Shown piece after piece: positions 2,915-61,578 of a stretch of DNA of 64,000 bases. The notes under the pieces are model-generated. The model was not told the origin of the DNA, made no database searches, and saw only the letters and a list, made by a program, of their open reading frames with translations. The stretch is from NCBI RefSeq assembly GCF_014695575.1, contig NZ_JACJOO010000031.1, positions 1 through 64,000 of the forward strand, given 5' to 3'. The DNA is from Leptolyngbya sp. FACHB-8 (GTDB lineage Bacteria; Cyanobacteriota; Cyanobacteriia; Elainellales; Elainellaceae). How positions within the stretch are numbered: position 1 is the first letter of the stretch; each line of letters starts with the position of its first letter. The translations under genes and the position numbers were made by a program.

Positions 2915-5533
2915 CTAGGCCAGAGTAGGCTGACGCCCACCAACAGGGCACTTCAACAACTCCAAACCCTGCTCAAAAATGTCGTCGATCGCCATCATTT
3001 GACCATCCGTTGTCATGAATTGGTGGTCAGCAGTTGCGCGAATGATGGTGCCATCATCCAGTTGATATTCGTACACCGATTGGAGACCACGGAGATGCCA
3101 TTGGGCGATCGGTTGCGTATAGATCAAGCCCTCATCATTCATGCTGTAAACGGAGCATTTCAGGCCACGTTCGACAATTTCGCCGATGGGTATGGGGCCA
3201 TACTCTACTGTCAAAACTGGGGTTTCGTAGCTAAGGCAGTACTCCGCGAACAGCACCATCTGATCCCAAAGTTCTGCGGCTACCTTTTCCTCAATGCCTC
3301 GCTCCTGAGCCCCTCCAACAAATTGAGCCTGGTGCTTTTGCATTTCTGAAACTTTCTTCTTACCCATCGCTCGCCGCAGCAGGTCAGCCTGTCCCAGGGT
3401 ATAGCCCGCCATATCCTGGGCAATTTTCATGATCTGCTCCTGGTAGACCATGATGCCGTAAGTTTCTCGCAGAATCGGTTCCAGCACCTCAGCGGCGTAG
3501 TCAATCTGCTCTCGACCATGCTTCCGGTTGATGAACTTGGGAATTAGGCCCGCATCCAACGGACCGGGACGGTAGAGGGCGAGAACGGATGAAATATCCT
3601 CCAGACCGGATGGCTTCAGATCGCGCACAATTTGGCGCATCCCCGAAGATTCCAATTGGAAGATGCCTTCTAGCCAGCCCTTCTCCAGCAGCTTGTAAGA
3701 TTCAGGATCATCCAGGGGAAGGCGATCGAGATCGATAGTCTTGTTGTGGTAACGCTCGATCAGCTCGACCGCTTTCTGAATCATGGTGAGGTTCTTGAGG
3801 CCCAGGAAGTCCATCTTCAGCAGACCCATGGCGTCGATGTCTTCCATGAAGTACTGGGTGATCACTGAGCCCTTATCGTTGTATTGCAGGGGTACAGCTT
3901 CATCCAGGGGCGTGTCAGAAATCACAACGCCTGCCGCATGAACCCCATAGGTCTTGTTTGTTCCCTCAATCCGCATGGCCATGTCGATCCAGCGGCGATA
4001 GGTGACAGGGGGATCGGTATTGGGGATGGGTTGGTCAGAGTCGTACTTCTCTTTGAACTCGGGAGCGGCTGTCTCATCCGAGATCATCTTGCTGAGTTTG
4101 GCGGGTTTGCCTCGCATGACGGGAATCATCTTCGCCATACGATCAGATTCCCCGTAGGGAATATTCAGCACACGGGCCACGTCCTTCAGAACCGCTTTGG
4201 AGGTCATGCGGTTGAAGGTGATGATCTGGGCGACGTGATCCTTGCCGTATTTCTCCGTCACATATTTGATCACCTCGTCACGGCGATCGATGCAGAAGTC
4301 TGTATCAATATCTGGCATGGACTTCCGCTCGGGATTGAGGAACCGCTCAAACAGCAAGCCATGATGTACCGGGTCGATGTTGGTGATCCGCATACAGTAC
4401 GCCACCAGGGAGCCCGCCGCCGAACCCCGACCTGGCCCCACAGGAATGCCCTGATCTCGCGCAAACTTGATATAGTCCCACACCACCAGGAAGTATGTGG
4501 AGAAGCCCATCTGGTGGATAACATCTAGTTCAAATTCAAGGCGATCGCGATACTCCTCCGACACCTCCTCCAGACTGCTCAACCCCAATCGCTCCACCAA
4601 ACCTTCGCGAGCAATCTTCGTGACGTAGGTTTCGGGAGTGTAGCCTTCGGGGATGGGATAGTTGGGGAGACGGGGCGAGCCGAGGATATCGTAGCCTTCG
4701 ACTTTTTCAGCAACTTCAAGGGTGGTGGCGATCGCCCGCTCAACCACATCCTCAGTCAAGTGATCCCGGAATAACTTCCGCATCTCATCGGCAGATTTCA
4801 GATACTCCGTACCGCTGTAGCGCAGCCGCTTATCCTCAGAAATCAACTTACCTGTCTGGATACAGAGAAGCGCGTCGTGGGCCTCTACGTCGAAGCAGGA
4901 GATGTAGTGGGAATCGTTAGTACAGATATATTTGATGTCTAACTCTTCCGAGATGCGAACGATTTCTACATTCACGATCCGATCTTCGGGAGAACCGTGA
5001 TCTTGCAATTCCAGGTAGAAGTCGTCGCCAAACTGCTCTTTGTACCAGGTTGCCACCCTCCGGGCAATCTCCGGGCGACCCTGCATGATGGCTTGAGGGA
5101 TCTCGCCGCCCAGACACGCACTGGTGACGATTAAGCCTTCCTTGTACTGCTCCAGCAAGTCCTTATTAATACAAGGGCGCGAGAAGATCCCTTTCCCCTG
5201 AACCCCCTGTAGATGGGAGAGGGTCGTCAGTTTAACCAGATTCTTATAGCCCTGGGTATTCTTCGCCAGCACCACTTGGTGGTAACGGGGGCGGCGCTCC
5301 TGCTTGGTGATGTCGCCATTGATGACGTACATCTCATTGCCAATGATGGGCTTGACGTTGCCGTTGTTCTTGCAAACCTTCAGCAGCTCGATCGCCCCAT
5401 ACATCACGCCGTGATCGGTGAGGGCGATCGCAGGCATCCCTAATTCCTCAGCCTGTTTCACCAGAGCTGGCAACTGACTGGCTCCATCGAGCAAGCTGTA
5501 GCTACTGTGAACATGCAGGCCAACAAACGACAT
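2915..5533 (-). CDS. dnaE: DNA polymerase III alpha subunit, N-terminal half fused to split-intein N fragment
   Basis: This 872-residue protein is the N-terminal part of replicative DnaE. It opens with the PHP domain ([16 protein letters not shown]) and contains the polymerase region with [10 protein letters not shown] and PDIDTDF. After 765 residues the extein stops at LFAEY and an intein begins with Cys766 (CLSYET). The intein fragment is 107 residues (bases 2915-3238) and includes the block B motif ATADHQF. This is the known cyanobacterial arrangement in which dnaE is split: a second gene elsewhere carries the C-intein and C-extein, and trans-splicing joins them. That partner is not in this window. 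The gene ends with the intein, not by truncation. Gene and mechanism are near certain. Confidence 0.97.
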
Positions 5534-5745: not shown

Positions 5746-5825
5746 GAATCTGCTAGCTAGTGAGAAGTGGCATTACATATGGCAGATTCACGCGACACTC
5801 GACGCCCATAACCCGAACTCAGGTT
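5746..5825. repeat. decayed family A element (right end)
   Basis: The segment from about 5790 to 5825 matches the right end of the family A element at 40545-40668 (ACCCGAACTCAGGTT preceded by a degenerate ACTCGACGCCC). The GAATCTGC...GCAGATTC pair at 5746-5789 forms an inner hairpin. The left half of the element is not recognisable, so this is an old or truncated copy in the gap before the DUF1361 gene. Confidence 0.55.
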
Positions 5826-6801: not shown

Positions 6802-6925
6802 AACCTCAGTTTGGGTTAAGGGCTTTTTCGAGTGCCGCGCTTCGCGCGGCACTCGAAAAAGCCCATTATTGCGTGCGCGACGCGCACGCAATAATGGGCG
6901 GTTCGGCTTATCCTGAACTGACGTT
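6802..6925. mobile_element. family A palindromic element, copy A1 (three-way junction)
   Basis: The outer arms AACCTCAGTTTGGGTTAAG and CTTATCCTGAACTGACGTT pair imperfectly and enclose two hairpins. Hairpin 1 (6820-6864) has a 21-bp perfect stem ending in TTC. Hairpin 2 (6861-6899) has an 18-bp perfect stem with loop GAC. The GCCC at 6861-6864 can pair in either one. CAAAT lies directly on both sides (6797-6801 and 6926-6930) and may be a 5-bp target duplication. The same architecture recurs inverted at 40545-40668. Confidence 0.8.
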
Positions 6926-9221: not shown

Positions 9222-9324
9222 AGGAGATTTCCAACAATGAAATTACCCCCAGGATGTTGGTGCTTTGCCCGCTTCGCGGGCAAAGCACCAACATCCTGGG
9301 TAGATTCTTATGCAGAAATCTCCT
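9222..9324. mobile_element. family B palindromic element, copy B1
   Basis: The ends AGGAGATTTC and GAAATCTCCT are exact inverted repeats. Inside, after AATGAAATTACC, sits a 25-bp perfect hairpin (9248-9300) whose tip reads GCTTCGC, the complement of the very stable GCGAAGC mini-hairpin. Copy B4 at 61429-61529 has the same core in the opposite orientation. It lies just downstream of the cinA stop, so it may end cinA transcription. Confidence 0.8.
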
Positions 9325-31963: not shown

Positions 31964-32024
31964 GGAGATTTCCAGCAATGAAATTACACCCAACATCCTG
32001 GTAAGTTCTTATGCAAAAACCTCC
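31964..32024. mobile_element. family B element without its central hairpin, copy B2
   Basis: The left end GGAGATTTCCAGCAATG and right end GTTCTTATGCAAAAACCTCC match copies B1 and B4, but the central hairpin is reduced to CCCAACATCCTGG. TTA lies directly on both sides (31961-31963 and 32025-32027). It is probably a deletion derivative. Confidence 0.75.
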
Positions 32025-36295: not shown

Positions 36296-38599
<2,304 letters not shown>

Positions 38600-40485: not shown

Positions 40486-40544
40486 TTTGGAGGAACTCTA
40501 AAACTGGATGAAAGAGTCATTTTTTTCGTGCGCTTACCGTACGA

Positions 40545-40668
40545 AACCTCAGTTCGGGATAAGCTGAAGTGCTCATTTTGGCGTGCGCAAAGCGCACGCC
40601 AAAATGAGCGTTTTCGAGTGCCGCGCGTTGCGCGGCACTCGAAAACGCCCTTAACCCGAACTCAGGTT
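40545..40668. mobile_element. family A palindromic element, copy A2 (three-way junction)
   Basis: Inverted relative to A1. The outer arms AACCTCAGTTCGGGATAAG and CTTAACCCGAACTCAGGTT enclose two perfect hairpins, 40571-40609 with AAA loop and 40609-40647 with GTT loop. ACGA stands directly outside both ends. GAGTCATTTT (40514) and AAAATGACTC (40676) form a further outer inverted repeat. Stem changes relative to A1 occur in matched pairs (see findings). Confidence 0.82.
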
Positions 40669-40723
40669 ACGAAGAAAATGACTCTTAAAACCGCCTGAGC
40701 CGATGACCAGTCCTGTTGAACGC

Positions 40724-43630: not shown

Positions 43631-43731
43631 AACTAATTTTGGGAAGGCATGGCCCAACGCGCACATCAAAATGGGCTTTTCGAGGGGCGCTTTGCGCGCC
43701 CCTCGAAAAGCCCATATCCCAAACTCAGGTT
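43631..43731. mobile_element. family A element, worn copy A3
   Basis: The right end AAACTCAGGTT and hairpin 1 (43673-43713, 18-bp perfect stem GGGCTTTTCGAGGGGCGC) match A1 and A2. Hairpin 2 and the left end have decayed (CATGGCCCAACGCG, ATCAAAATGGGC). The stem retains pairing while its sequence differs from A1. Confidence 0.7.
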
Positions 43732-51200: not shown

Positions 51201-51332
51201 CAGCAATTCTCAGTATGGGTTTCAAAGCTGAGAGTTCGTGCCCGACGGGCACGAACTCTCAGCTTTGAAACCCGAAAATAGCCCGCCTTCGGCGGGCTAT
51301 TTTCGGGTTGGATATCAAAATGAGAATTGCTG
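51201..51332. mobile_element. family C element, copy C2 (132 bp) with exact 9-bp target duplication
   Basis: The ends CAGCAATTCTCA and TGAGAATTGCTG are exact inverted repeats. Two perfect hairpins lie inside: 51217-51273 (27-bp stem, loop GAC) and the 17-bp stem from CCCGAAAATAGCCCGCC to 51307. AAAAGATTC stands at 51192-51200 and again at 51333-51341, an exact 9-bp direct repeat touching both ends. It is the same length as C1 and inverted to it. It is non-autonomous, since it has no room for a transposase. Confidence 0.92.
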
Positions 51333-51340
51333 AAAAGATT

Positions 51341-51406
51341 CTCATGTGCTGAAAATTTTGTAATGACACTGCATGCAGCGTCATTACAAAATTTTCAGCA
51401 CATGAG
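51341..51406. repeat. 27-bp perfect hairpin adjoining C2
   Basis: CTCATGTGCTGAAAATTTTG continues to TAATGAC and pairs exactly over 27 bp with its complement; the loop contains GCATGC. Its first base is the last base of the C2 target duplication, so C2 inserted at the edge of this hairpin. Confidence 0.75.
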
Positions 51407-52294: not shown

Positions 52295-53014
52295 ATGTCT
52301 GGAACGCAATCCCAAATTTCATCCTTAATGTCCATTGACTGGTTATCGCAACTGCGCCAAGAGCGGGCGATCGCCGTTATCCGTTCTCCTGAGTTCGCTC
52401 TGGGCTTTCAAATGGCCCAAGCCGTTGCGGCCGGCGGCATGGGGCTGATTGAAATTACCTGGAATAGCGATCGTCCGGCCCATCTCATTGCTCACCTGCG
52501 AGAAACTTTACCCCACTGCACCATTGGTGCCGGAACATTGATGACCGAAAGCCAGGTAGAGGAAGCGATCGCCGCCGGAGCCCAGTTTCTCTTTACCCCG
52601 CACACAAACCCTCGTCTTATCGAAACAGCTGATCGAGCCCATGTGCCAATGGTGCCCGGTACTCTAACCCCCACAGAAATTGTGACGGCATGGCAAGCTG
52701 GGGCTTCGGCAGTGAAGGTATTTCCAATCCAATCGGTAGGTGGAGCGAATTACCTGCGCTGCTTGCAGGGGCCGATAGGTCAGATTCCCATGATTCCGAC
52801 AGGGGGTGTGACACTGGAGAATACGCGCACCTTTTTAGAGGCAGGAGCGATCGCCGTAGGCCTTTCCGGGCAATTGTTTCCACAGCAGGCGATCGCCACA
52901 GGAGATTGGTCGCAAATTACTGATCTGGCTCAAACCCTGCGCCAACGAATTCACAGCTTCTTGATAGGAGCCAATGGACACTCGCCTATACATAGCGGAA
53001 TGGATAAAGCATAA
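52295..53014 (+). CDS. eda: KDPG/KHG aldolase (2-keto-3-deoxy-6-phosphogluconate type)
   Basis: A 239-residue class I aldolase of the Entner-Doudoroff family, which splits 2-keto-3-deoxy-6-phosphogluconate to pyruvate and glyceraldehyde-3-phosphate, or 4-hydroxy-2-oxoglutarate to pyruvate and glyoxylate. The start at 52295 (MSGTQSQISSLM) is preferred; another ATG lies at 52328, and the frame reaching 52238 would overlap the neighbouring gene. Catalytic elements are GLIEITW (Glu), TIGAGTLM, FTPHTNPRLIE, and ASAVKVFP with the Schiff-base Lys. Residues 190-205 (PTGGVTLEN) bind phosphate. Substrate preference cannot be read from sequence. Confidence 0.88.
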   Translation: MSGTQSQISSLMSIDWLSQLRQERAIAVIRSPEFALGFQMAQAVAAGGMGLIEITWNSDRPAHLIAHLRETLPHCTIGAGTLMTESQVEEAIAAGAQFLFTPHTNPRLIETADRAHVPMVPGTLTPTEIVTAWQAGASAVKVFPIQSVGGANYLRCLQGPIGQIPMIPTGGVTLENTRTFLEAGAIAVGLSGQLFPQQAIATGDWSQITDLAQTLRQRIHSFLIGANGHSPIHSGMDKA

Positions 53015-53026
53015 GGGCGGCTTCAA

Positions 53027-53236
53027 ACCTACTGAGCCACACTATCCCTCTAGTTCTTGAGCATTATGGGTATGCTTCGGTACGCCCAAAACGCTCGTTT
53101 GCGATCTAACGCCCTTAGGAGATTTCTGAGAAACAATATCCCCATTATTTGGAAAAAAGGCGCGGCGAAGCCGCGCCTTTTTTCCAAATAATGGGGAAGT
53201 TCTTATCTGGAAATCTCCTTAACCCGAACTCAGATT
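53027..53236. mobile_element. worn family A element (A4) interrupted by element B3
   Basis: The right end TTAACCCGAACTCAGATT (53219-53236) and the inner fragments GAGCATTATGGG, TACGCCCAAAACGCTC and AACGCCC match family A in order. Element B3 (53118-53218) interrupts it between GCCC and TTAACCCG, which are contiguous in A2. The left boundary is uncertain. The right end overlaps the stop codon of the CHAT gene. Confidence 0.65.
53118..53218. mobile_element. family B element, copy B3, inserted in a family A element
   Basis: The ends GGAGATTTC and GAAATCTCC are exact inverted repeats, TTA flanks both (53115-53117 and 53219-53221), and a 27-bp perfect hairpin (53140-53196) with loop GAA stands in the centre. 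Its stem sequence differs from B1 and B4, but the GTTCTTAT next to the right end is shared. Confidence 0.85.
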
Positions 53237-55820
53237 ATTGAGCCTCACCAATCAATGTGAAGGCGGCCCAGTCAAATGGGTGATTATATTCGTTTTTGGC
53301 ATCCAGCATAGCTTGTCGTAGGGCCTGGGCTTTACCCTGCCCCTGGCGCAGGTTCTCGTAAAAGTGGGTCATGACAAAGGCTGTGGAGGTATCAGACACG
53401 GCCCACAGGGAAACGATGATGCTGGCGGCACCTGCCGAGATAAAGGAGCGGGATAAACCAATCACCCCATCCCCCGTAATTTCGCCGCGACCCGTGTTAC
53501 AGGCACTTAACACCACCAGATCGGCATTTAGACGCAGGCTGAGAATTTCGGCGGTGGTTAGAAGCCCATCGGTTTCAGCAGAGGAAAGTGGCGGTGAACC
53601 AAGGGCGGGCCTTTCTTCAGAAGGAGCTAATGCGATCGCCCCCGGCATATCACGCCCCCTTCCCTGCTGAGCCTGACCATAGTTCAACAGACCGTGAGTT
53701 GCCAGGTGAATAATGCGGGCTGTAGGCATGCGATCGCGTACAGTTACCTCTGTGGCTTGTTCACCCAAAAGAGCAGGCACATTGAGCAATCGGGCGATGT
53801 CTCGGGCTTCCTGCTCAGAACCGGGCAGAGGAGCCAGAGGCTGGGGTGGATCACCGGGTTTAGACGATATTGCGGGCATCGTTGGGTTACCCACCAACAG
53901 CACCGAGGCGAGTGCATCACCGCTTGTTCTCGTCTCACGATGGCCCTGCTGAGCCTGGGCCAATCCAATGACCTGAATGGAGGGGGCTGTGAGCAAGGTG
54001 TGGCGTTCAATTAAATAACGACCGTCAGTGTCCTGAAGCGCAGCAAAAGGCACCAAAAACAACGCATCCTGCGGAATGATGATGACAGGAGCGGTGGGTT
54101 CCGCAGGCAGGAGATCCTCGATGGGGGCAATCAAGTGTTCATGCAGTTGTTGCAACTTGGGCCAATCGAAGCTAGTTGCACTGGCACCATCGCGCTCCTC
54201 GCCGCGCACCCCCAAAGCACGGCGGCTACTAGCAACCAGATTACTCAGGGAGCTACTCGAGCGGTTTTGATCCCAGAGAGGTTGTAAATCGACACGACGA
54301 AAAGCGATCGCCCCCGATGGTGGCACCACCCAAATTAATAACTCTGCCTCCCGCCCCCGCTGCCGCCCCTGAAACCGAAATGCATCATCTGCCACGATCG
54401 CATACTCCACCAGTGTGGCGTTCTGACGCTGGGCGATCGCTCGCATCTCCTCCACCGTAGGCGGTGGCAGCACATCGGACGGGAAGCCAGGATTGCTGCG
54501 ACGTGTTAATAGTTCTGCAAAGGCTCGCGCCCGCCCCCGCTCCGATACCTCCAATGCGGCCTCGTAGCGCTCCCGAGCCACGAGAATTTGCTGCAACAGG
54601 TTGTAGCTGAATATCTGACTATCAAACAGGGCGATATTATCCAGATCCGACAGACCAGGGCGCAAGGACTCGAGATGGGCGATCGCCTGCCGCAGCAACT
54701 CCTCTGCTTCTCGATACTGGCCCTGGTTAAACAGAGTATGGCCGAGATTATTCTGTACGGTTGCCTCTAGGCGCGGATCGCCCAGGGTTCGTGCAATGAC
54801 CAGGCTCTCCCGCTGTAAAGCGATCGCCCCCTCCAGATCCTCTCGCTCCTCCTGCACCATCCCCAGACTGCCCAAGCCCATCGCCTCCAGGGAGCGATCG
54901 CCTACCTCCTGCGCCAGGGTTAAACTCTGACGATAATAAACCTCTGCGCGATCCAGATCGCTCTTCGCATGGTAAGCCGACGCCATATTGAGGAGTAGGT
55001 GTGCCTGAGCCTGGTGATAGCGGGTTGGTTCGGGTTGGCTACCCAGAGCTTCGAGCCGCACCAGACTTTGCTGGTACTGGGCGATCGCCTCGTCATAGTC
55101 GCCCTCATTGGCATAGAGCACCCCCAGATTGCTGAGCGTCTCCGCTTCGCCCACCGCATCATTCTGCGCTTGCACAATAGCCAGTGCCTGCTGATGAGCT
55201 TGAATTGCGGCATTGTAATCCCCCACAGCCGCATAGGCATTGCCTAGATTGCCCCACACGCGACCCGTTGCAGATTGGTAAGCGTCTCCGAGGGATTGCA
55301 TGAGATGGAGAGCTTGCTCCTGCACGGTTACCGCTCGGGCGTATTGTCCGACTTCGCGGTAAGCTACGCCTAAATTGCTGAGTACCTGAGCCTGAGCTAA
55401 GCGATCTGCCTCAGGCAAAGGTGCGGATTCTGCCTCGACTCGGCTCAGAAATTGCTCCAAGTGAGCGATCGCCTGCCCATAATCCTCCAGATTTAAATAG
55501 GCAGAACCCAGGGCACTGAGGGTAGAGCGCTCTCCCGCACGATCCTGGGCTTGCTGATAGAGGGTGAGGGCTTGTTGCCAGGGGGCGATCGCCGCCTCCA
55601 CCTGCTGATCTTGATAAAGCCGGTAGCCCTGCCAAAATAGCTCCAAGGCCTGCTCCGATAAGGACGGAGAAGTGGTAGGTGCTGATTCCACAGCCAGGGT
55701 TACTGGCAGGTTCAGGGCAACTAGCGGTGTCCCTATTCCGCTCAAACATAGACCCAAAAGCAAGCAGCTGAGGAATTTGACCAAGCGACTCAAGCGCGAT
55801 CGGTGCATAAGGGGTATCAA
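53235..55820 (-). CDS. exported TPR-CHAT domain protein
   Basis: An 861-residue protein. A signal peptide covers about residues 9-36 (FLSCLLLGLCLSGIGTPLVA). Tetratricopeptide repeats fill about 60-420, with typical A-x-NNLGHTLFNQGQYREAE-type units. The C-terminal 300 residues form a CHAT caspase-like domain: His709 in HLATHGLLN and Cys774 in VVLSACNTGRG make the catalytic dyad, and FISAGAASIIVSLWAV, typical of CHAT, follows. It is probably an active cysteine protease outside the cytosol. Its start overlaps the stop of the upstream haemagglutinin gene by 4 bp, so their translation is coupled; such pairs recur in cyanobacteria but their role is unknown. Confidence 0.9.
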   Translation of the reverse strand: MIPLMHRSRLSRLVKFLSCLLLGLCLSGIGTPLVALNLPVTLAVESAPTTSPSLSEQALELFWQGYRLYQDQQVEAAIAPWQQALTLYQQAQDRAGERSTLSALGSAYLNLEDYGQAIAHLEQFLSRVEAESAPLPEADRLAQAQVLSNLGVAYREVGQYARAVTVQEQALHLMQSLGDAYQSATGRVWGNLGNAYAAVGDYNAAIQAHQQALAIVQAQNDAVGEAETLSNLGVLYANEGDYDEAIAQYQQSLVRLEALGSQPEPTRYHQAQAHLLLNMASAYHAKSDLDRAEVYYRQSLTLAQEVGDRSLEAMGLGSLGMVQEEREDLEGAIALQRESLVIARTLGDPRLEATVQNNLGHTLFNQGQYREAEELLRQAIAHLESLRPGLSDLDNIALFDSQIFSYNLLQQILVARERYEAALEVSERGRARAFAELLTRRSNPGFPSDVLPPPTVEEMRAIAQRQNATLVEYAIVADDAFRFQGRQRGREAELLIWVVPPSGAIAFRRVDLQPLWDQNRSSSSLSNLVASSRRALGVRGEERDGASATSFDWPKLQQLHEHLIAPIEDLLPAEPTAPVIIIPQDALFLVPFAALQDTDGRYLIERHTLLTAPSIQVIGLAQAQQGHRETRTSGDALASVLLVGNPTMPAISSKPGDPPQPLAPLPGSEQEARDIARLLNVPALLGEQATEVTVRDRMPTARIIHLATHGLLNYGQAQQGRGRDMPGAIALAPSEERPALGSPPLSSAETDGLLTTAEILSLRLNADLVVLSACNTGRGEITGDGVIGLSRSFISAGAASIIVSLWAVSDTSTAFVMTHFYENLRQGQGKAQALRQAMLDAKNEYNHPFDWAAFTLIGEAQ

Positions 55821-61411: not shown

Positions 61412-61578
61412 GGCTGTTTAAGCAGTTAGGAGGTTTCTGCATAAGAATTTACCCAGAATGTTGGTGCTTTGCCCGCTTCGCGGGCAAAGCACCAACATTC
61501 TGGGGGTAATTTCATTACTGGAAATCTCCTTAATCTTTTATGTGCATAGGGCATAAAAGATTAACTGCTTAAATAGCC
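61412..61578. mobile_element. three-way-junction repeat split by element B4
   Basis: GGCTGTTTAAGCAGTTA (61412-61428) and TAACTGCTTAAATAGCC (61562-61578) are inverted repeats with one mismatch. Between them lie B4 (61429-61529) and a second hairpin, AATCTTTTATG and CATAAAAGATT (61532-61562). Without B4 and one TTA, the arms would close directly around the second hairpin, so B4 inserted into an older palindrome. Confidence 0.75.
61429..61529. mobile_element. family B element, copy B4
   Basis: The ends GGAGGTTTC and GAAATCTCC are nearly exact inverted repeats. TTA flanks both sides (61426-61428 and 61530-61532). The central hairpin has the same sequence as in B1 except a matched pair change near its base. 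It lies in the opposite orientation to B1. Confidence 0.85.

Follow-up and report, generated by a model that had tools for sequence, protein, structure and literature searches.

A palindromic MITE-type element with a 3-bp target duplication, nested in an older two-hairpin repeat of a Leptolyngbya draft genome

We found that a family A repeat at 53.1 kb of the window (the 64,000-nucleotide stretch of DNA analysed here, part of contig 25 of a 6.93-Mb draft genome in 95 contigs) is split at a TTA by a 101-bp palindromic element, B3. Very probably, B3 is a MITE that was mobilised in trans, made a 3-bp TWA duplication and now lies nested in an older family A element. The interrupted site reads CGCCC-TTA-[B3]-TTA-ACCCGAACTCAG, and the corresponding unbroken junction is present at 215 places in the genome, which bears out the original prediction that B3 was inserted into family A at TTA.

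B3 occupies positions 53118-53218 on the plus strand. The locus reads AACGCCC-TTA-GGAGATTTC...GAAATCTCC-TTA-ACCCGAACTCAGAT, the two copies of the TTA target-site duplication being at 53115-53117 and 53219-53221. As expected of a MITE, the element lacks a transposase gene and has perfect 9-bp terminal inverted repeats outside a longer hairpin. The hairpin consists of two perfect 27-bp arms (53140-53166 and 53170-53196) around a GAA loop (53167-53169), and the single-stranded DNA of 53115-53221 is predicted to fold at -43.9 kcal/mol, against a shuffle mean of -11.2 (z -12.66). B3 is flanked by an aldolase gene (KDPG/KHG type, PF01081; stop at 53014) and by a converging minus-strand ORF of 861 codons, whose stop codon at 53235-53237 coincides with the right edge of A3, the decayed family A element. 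The frequency of GCGATCGC, a cyanobacterial marker, points to a cyanobacterium, and so does the cyanobacterial MAG in which the only related end outside this genome was detected.

Family A is a two-hairpin element. After reduction of 102 rows to 60 distinct ones, 53 of the 60 copies were 122 bp long, and 53 full-length rows were used for the analysis of arms and loops. Target-site duplications of family A were 6 bp in 30 copies, 7 bp in 11, 8 bp in 2 and 10 bp in 1, with none recognised in 16. The intact element A2 (40546-40667, plus strand) contains both hairpins, is bordered by the duplication TACGAA (40540-40545 and 40668-40673) and carries the junction unbroken as CGCCC TTA ACCCGAACTCAG at 40646-40665. 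A2 had been proposed as the empty site of the B3 insertion. It does present the same sequence uninterrupted, but it is a paralogous and not an orthologous empty site, and its coordinates had been given about one base off. The window also contains a family A copy at 6803-6924 (minus strand, 109.0 bits), a diverged copy at 43633-43730 (plus strand, 45.2 bits) and a right-end fragment at 5788-5824 (plus strand, 14.5 bits). Across the genome, the unbroken junction CGCCCTTAACCCGAACTCAG was found with up to two mismatches at those 215 places compared with 1 in the control, so it is not a product of chance; among the 100 places listed of the 215, 69 were exact.

Alignment of family A across the junction, which had been suggested as a check, supports the nesting. 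With B3 kept, the family A profile matched only 26 bp at 53.1 kb (53209-53234; 10.5 bits, E 0.009), whereas in silico excision of B3 and one TTA allowed the match to span the junction and to extend 55 bp further left (16.7 bits, E 1.1e-4). The left remnant of A3 thus delimited lies at 53063-53117 and the right terminal repeat ACCCGAACTCAGAT at 53222-53235, both on the plus strand. The second hairpin of A3 is missing and its left end was not recognised; given this lost left end and the weak alignment on the left side, we regard A3 as a decayed family A element.

A different reading would make A and B one composite repeat, with the GGAGATTTC hairpin as a normal A module and A2 as a deletion form, and the three further sites at which B stands at the very edge of A (L023, L030 and L065) are in line with it. 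However, other family A copies carrying the inserted segment, which had been named as what would refute the nesting, were not seen in the sample examined: none of the 60 distinct copies, selected for similarity to A2 or for a preserved right end, has the GGAGATTTC/GAAATCTCC ends. Moreover, B3 is the single one of 106 B-type sites that falls within a family A alignment (flanks of up to 150 bp on each side, E <=0.05), and the duplications differ, being 3 bp for B and mostly 6-7 bp for A. We therefore consider a composite repeat hardly credible, and return to the insertion of B into A. About three nested sites would be expected by chance, assuming ~300 A copies in ~1.2 Mb of spacer, so one such site gives no sign that B seeks A. 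In a genome that holds such elements by the hundred, nesting of this kind is nothing unusual.

The order of insertion, A and then B, is fixed at the 53.1-kb locus, where B splits A as originally predicted; it rests there on ~25 bp of A sequence and the weak left alignment, and A3's own duplication is not visible. The second site L030 agrees with this order and is the better preserved nesting. Family A at L030 bears TAAATA on both sides only when B and one TAA are removed. Because A's TAAATA is split by B and the bases adjoining A are not duplicated, A must have come first and B later. At L065 and L023, B lies at A's edge and the order is not fixed. As to an orthologous empty site, six relatives share the neighbouring aldolase gene (67-72% DNA identity), with no alignment into the spacer, and in the sibling genome the neighbouring gene (72% DNA identity) likewise gave no alignment reaching the spacer. 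At the family level, A is more widespread than B: with up to six candidates scored per genome, 6 of the 145 other genomes searched yielded elements similar to A, and none of the 145, sibling species included, gave a B match. No family A match was found in the sibling species among up to six scored candidates.

Candidate sources of family A were also considered. One-sided matches in G088 (6), G061 (1) and G037 (1) were rejected as a full-length source because they proved to be short two-ended elements with other cores, and at L188 in G104 only one family A end was found, beside ORFs that are not transposase-like by eye. A derivation of family A from IS982-type elements, considered on general features, found no support, as no match to DDE_Tnp_1_3 (PF13612) was detected in the own genome.

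The pattern GGAGATTTC-N{70,100}-GAAATCTCC identified 61 exact-ended copies in the own genome and 0 in the reversed control, so the ends of B3 are not a chance pairing. At least 96% identity to B3 was seen in 40 copies (40 of 157 first-look candidates were scored), and 13 copies, B3 included, are identical. Of 113 B-type candidate windows, one selection dropped 13 (overlapping or chance windows, deletion forms, poor hairpins) and a separate one dropped 7 and so kept 106. The alignment of these 106 took in 57 B copies, again with 13 identical ones and B3 among them, and 49 copies of B', a sister subfamily with the same ends and another hairpin core. B' is represented in the window by an element with a TTA duplication (61429-61529, plus strand), an internally deleted 61-bp element (31964-32024, minus strand) and an element at 9223-9323 (minus strand). 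The last has unmatched flanks, TCA on the left and TAA on the right, and is possibly an old or recombined insertion. At L131, positions 37-201 hold a head-to-tail pair of B-type elements with one TAA in common, the first of which is 61 bp long and resembles B' at its left end and B at its right.

Beyond the genomes compared above, no B match was found in the plasmid and phage collections, and one B end pattern had no match among viral contigs; these collections may omit the own genome. A degenerate relative was detected in a cyanobacterial MAG (L150, about 3982-4096; JAQCKL010000186.1), with a right end nearly identical to that of B. In the collections searched, the B family was thus seen only in its own genome, this one relative apart. 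Searches of the literature by words, not by sequence, found no description of the B family, and none found cyanobacterial palindromic MITEs with TTA. In our reading, B is a young, lineage-specific, non-autonomous MITE-type DNA element.

Other palindromic repeats lie in the same window. At 36388-36519 and 51201-51309 there are two copies of a third family, a two-hairpin repeat that ends on one side in CAGCAATTCTCA; the hairpin order is opposite between the two copies, which may simply reflect opposite orientation. A palindrome at 51341-51406 has 37-nt arms that are 97% complementary.

The TTA beside B3 is a duplicated target and not part of the element. The original prediction had left both possibilities, and the second does not hold, since the triplet varies among copies, yet the left and right triplets agree in 53 of the 57 B-type copies gathered blind to their flanks (TTA 24, TAA 24, TGA 3, ATA 2; unmatched in the other 4). 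A duplication that keeps one length at scattered sites is what is expected of a MITE, and the identical TNA on both sides in 51 of the 57 agrees with the 3-bp TNA duplication of IS5/IS1031. In a wider set of B-type copies, partly chosen by a TTA adjoining the end, flanks matched in 94 of 100. TTA and TAA each account for 1.1% of window triplets. C precedes the triplet in 33 and G follows it in 35 of the 57 flank-blind copies. The predicted TTA targeting, for which a survey of family B flanks had been proposed, is therefore upheld, although (C)TWA(G), with TGA also tolerated, describes the preferred target better.

These flanks also bear on whether B3 was ever mobile. An immobile bidirectional terminator or REP-like palindrome, spread by gene conversion and next to TTA by chance, would account for the nearly identical hairpins of the B copies, for the position of B3 between two converging genes and for the finding that 0 of 31 classifiable B copies lie inside a crude ORF call (1 of 3 for B'). 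Yet the exact ends and identical 3-bp flanks recur at unrelated places, in 53 of the 57 copies, and duplications are not a product of gene conversion. The B3 hairpin was absent from the output of the terminator scan, which reported an unrelated site only, and no more than in shuffles. The neighbours of B are in tandem at 12 sites, convergent at 10, divergent at 8 and at an edge at 1, compared with 46 tandem, 35 convergent and 14 divergent control pairs from the same kind of locus, and so show no excess of convergent sites. An immobile palindrome is very improbable on this evidence; a terminator side effect of B is possible.

B3 is thus best treated as a transposed element. The exact ends and the constant 3-bp length of the duplication suggest a DDE transposase whose two cuts are staggered by 3 bp. 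In the mechanism we propose, a DDE-type cut-and-paste transposase acting in trans would have inserted B3 by cutting (C)TWA(G) with a 3-bp stagger, and repair would have doubled the TWA; the target here would have been a TTA in the right terminal region of the older family A element. Since no enzyme carrying B ends was found, we infer the class of the helper, as IS5/IS1031 or PIF-Harbinger-like. Profile searches of the own genome gave 7 matches to PF01609 (DDE_Tnp_1), 1 to PF13359 (DDE_Tnp_4) and 0 to PF13612. None of these transposase matches lies within a pair of GGAGATTTC-like ends (up to one mismatch) in the stretch examined. The sole IS5-like gene pair (DUF4096 + DDE_Tnp_1, at L041) has no GGAGATTTC ends within one mismatch, and a scan of L041, L042, L043, L045, L046 and L047 for other terminal repeats returned nothing relevant to B. 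The GGAGATTTC-like ends at L046 (C76) belong to a B' copy. There, B' at about 1112-1212 forms the first part of a 303-codon ORF with the genome's only DDE_Tnp_4 (IS5-like) match, and it seems to interrupt this transposase gene.

The search for an autonomous partner covered 40 stretches at lone TTAGGAGATTTC ends and a few more. TTAGGAGATTTC occurs at 108 places and TAAGGAGATTTC at 118, with 100 of each listed; B' ends can also read GGAGGTTTC. Two candidates were rejected. The inward-facing end pair 1.4 kb apart on C55 belongs to two separate elements, and in the 2.1-kb pair on C58 one end is that of an ordinary B copy and the intervening ORFs are not transposase-like by eye.

The hairpin arms of the B-type copies have changed in concert. 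Relative to the subfamily consensus, we counted 10 distinct paired and 15 one-arm changes in B, and 17 paired and 26 one-arm changes in B' (27 and 41 over the 106 copies); a deletion of 2+2 bases in L128, by which both arms shrink, is counted here among the one-arm changes. Changes in both arms were present in 15 B and 24 B' copies. In these, co-located changes numbered 26 in B against a shuffle mean of 3.6 (maximum 9) and 62 in B' against 18.7 (maximum 29), with 2000 shuffles each in a test that ignores the relatedness of copies. L022 and L104 have a change at position 65 without one at position 35, and five copies have both, which fits half-way states. A T-A to A-T change cannot go through a G-T step. 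The hairpins of 53 near-consensus family A copies behave alike: distinct paired changes number 7 and 4, one-arm changes 17 and 12, and co-located changes 12 and 9 against shuffle means of 1.7 (maximum 6) and 0.6 (maximum 4).

Template switching between the arms homogenises them and inverts spacers, according to excerpts of PMC8604942 and PMC8794818. During replication, one hairpin arm would be copied from the other, a step that would keep the hairpin near perfect and flip the loop. Against this stand the excess of one-arm (41) over paired (27) changes and 6 pairs in which both sides changed without pairing (4 in L134, 1 in L079 and 1 in L024). Paired changes could also result from selection, be it for a folded RNA or for a transposition hairpin; the pairing kept in both families and the one-arm changes found beside paired ones, as at position 65, speak for it. 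However, among the 27 paired changes 15 occur in a single copy each (4 of them in L134, a diverged B' copy) and double transversions are present, the loops are flipped on backgrounds that are otherwise identical, which selection for pairing does not explain, and the Rfam scan of the window brought no family up to threshold. We judge selection to be an improbable cause of the paired changes. Template switching best explains the concerted arms and the flipped loops together, the loops being the less secure part in a draft assembly. Among titles and the opening lines of abstracts on the concerted evolution of palindromic MITEs, nothing was recognised as the same phenomenon.

The loops occur in both orientations. 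The 3-bp loop at element positions 50-52 is GAA in 29, TTC in 26 and other in 2 of the 57 B copies, and GAA in 20, TTC in 23 and other in 6 of the 49 B' copies. Seven B/B' backgrounds that are identical outside the loop carry both orientations; among them, 25 B copies that are the same at every other base divide into 13 with GAA and 12 with TTC. Family A behaves similarly. Its 11 identical-arm copies include all four AAA/TTT x GTT/AAC loop combinations (AAA-AAC 5, AAA-GTT 2, TTT-AAC 1, TTT-GTT 2; the eleventh has GTC).

Read on the opposite strand, a GAA hairpin becomes a TTC hairpin, so a short-read assembler could have set the orientation wrongly. The mixed loops would then be an artefact of hairpin placement, as the 95-contig draft state of the genome and the 13/12 split, which resembles a random choice, would allow. 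On the other side, the family A hairpins are just 39-41 bp long, a length that reads are expected to span, yet they too show both orientations, and paired substitutions at single copies are hard to produce by mis-assembly. We judge an assembly artefact to be rather unlikely. If the inversions are real, loop inversion might be so frequent relative to point mutation that orientation is near equilibrium, and might even be tied to transposition itself, every new copy resolving its hairpin in either direction; we offer this as a speculation that is probably wrong. Were it true, the elements would keep a natural count of template switching or of a step that resolves hairpins. In the literature on spacer inversion with transposable elements, the titles and opening abstract lines among the matches listed contained nothing recognised as the same.

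Through the nesting, a MITE family whose copies are very similar acquires a clear relative date and a defined target. Of greater value are the two palindromic families themselves. With dozens of near-identical copies apiece, they amount to a natural replicate experiment on the upkeep of hairpins, in which ordinary point mutations offer a yardstick for counts of paired changes, half-way states and loop inversions.

Among known systems, the target of PIF/Harbinger elements is TTA or TAA and that of the MITE Nezha is TA. PIF/Harbinger elements make 3-bp duplications, and their Tourist MITEs share this feature with B (PMC2213677, in excerpts); they are eukaryotic, whereas the host of B is bacterial, and the two are compared by target alone. 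Nezha and other cyanobacterial MITEs resemble B in being short, non-autonomous and multi-copy (as cited in excerpts of PMC10969869), a comparison made by description and not by sequence. REP elements, the GTAG/CGTC-tagged palindromes, are likewise small, dispersed and palindromic (excerpts of PMC3733652). Unlike them, B is 101 bp long with terminal repeats and 3-bp duplications, and GTAG and CGTC are absent from B3 by eye. The IS1031 subgroup of IS5 prefers a TNA target and makes a 3-bp repeat (PMC12016507, in excerpts). B shares the 3-bp duplication and the TNA target, using TTA, TAA and TGA. It differs in its ends, GGAGATTTC being unlike the 17-bp IS1031 ends GAACCTGTC... excerpted from the same source, and in having no transposase gene; no helper with B ends was found in the own genome. 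B therefore appears to work like an IS1031-type MITE, and we do not file it as a member of that group.
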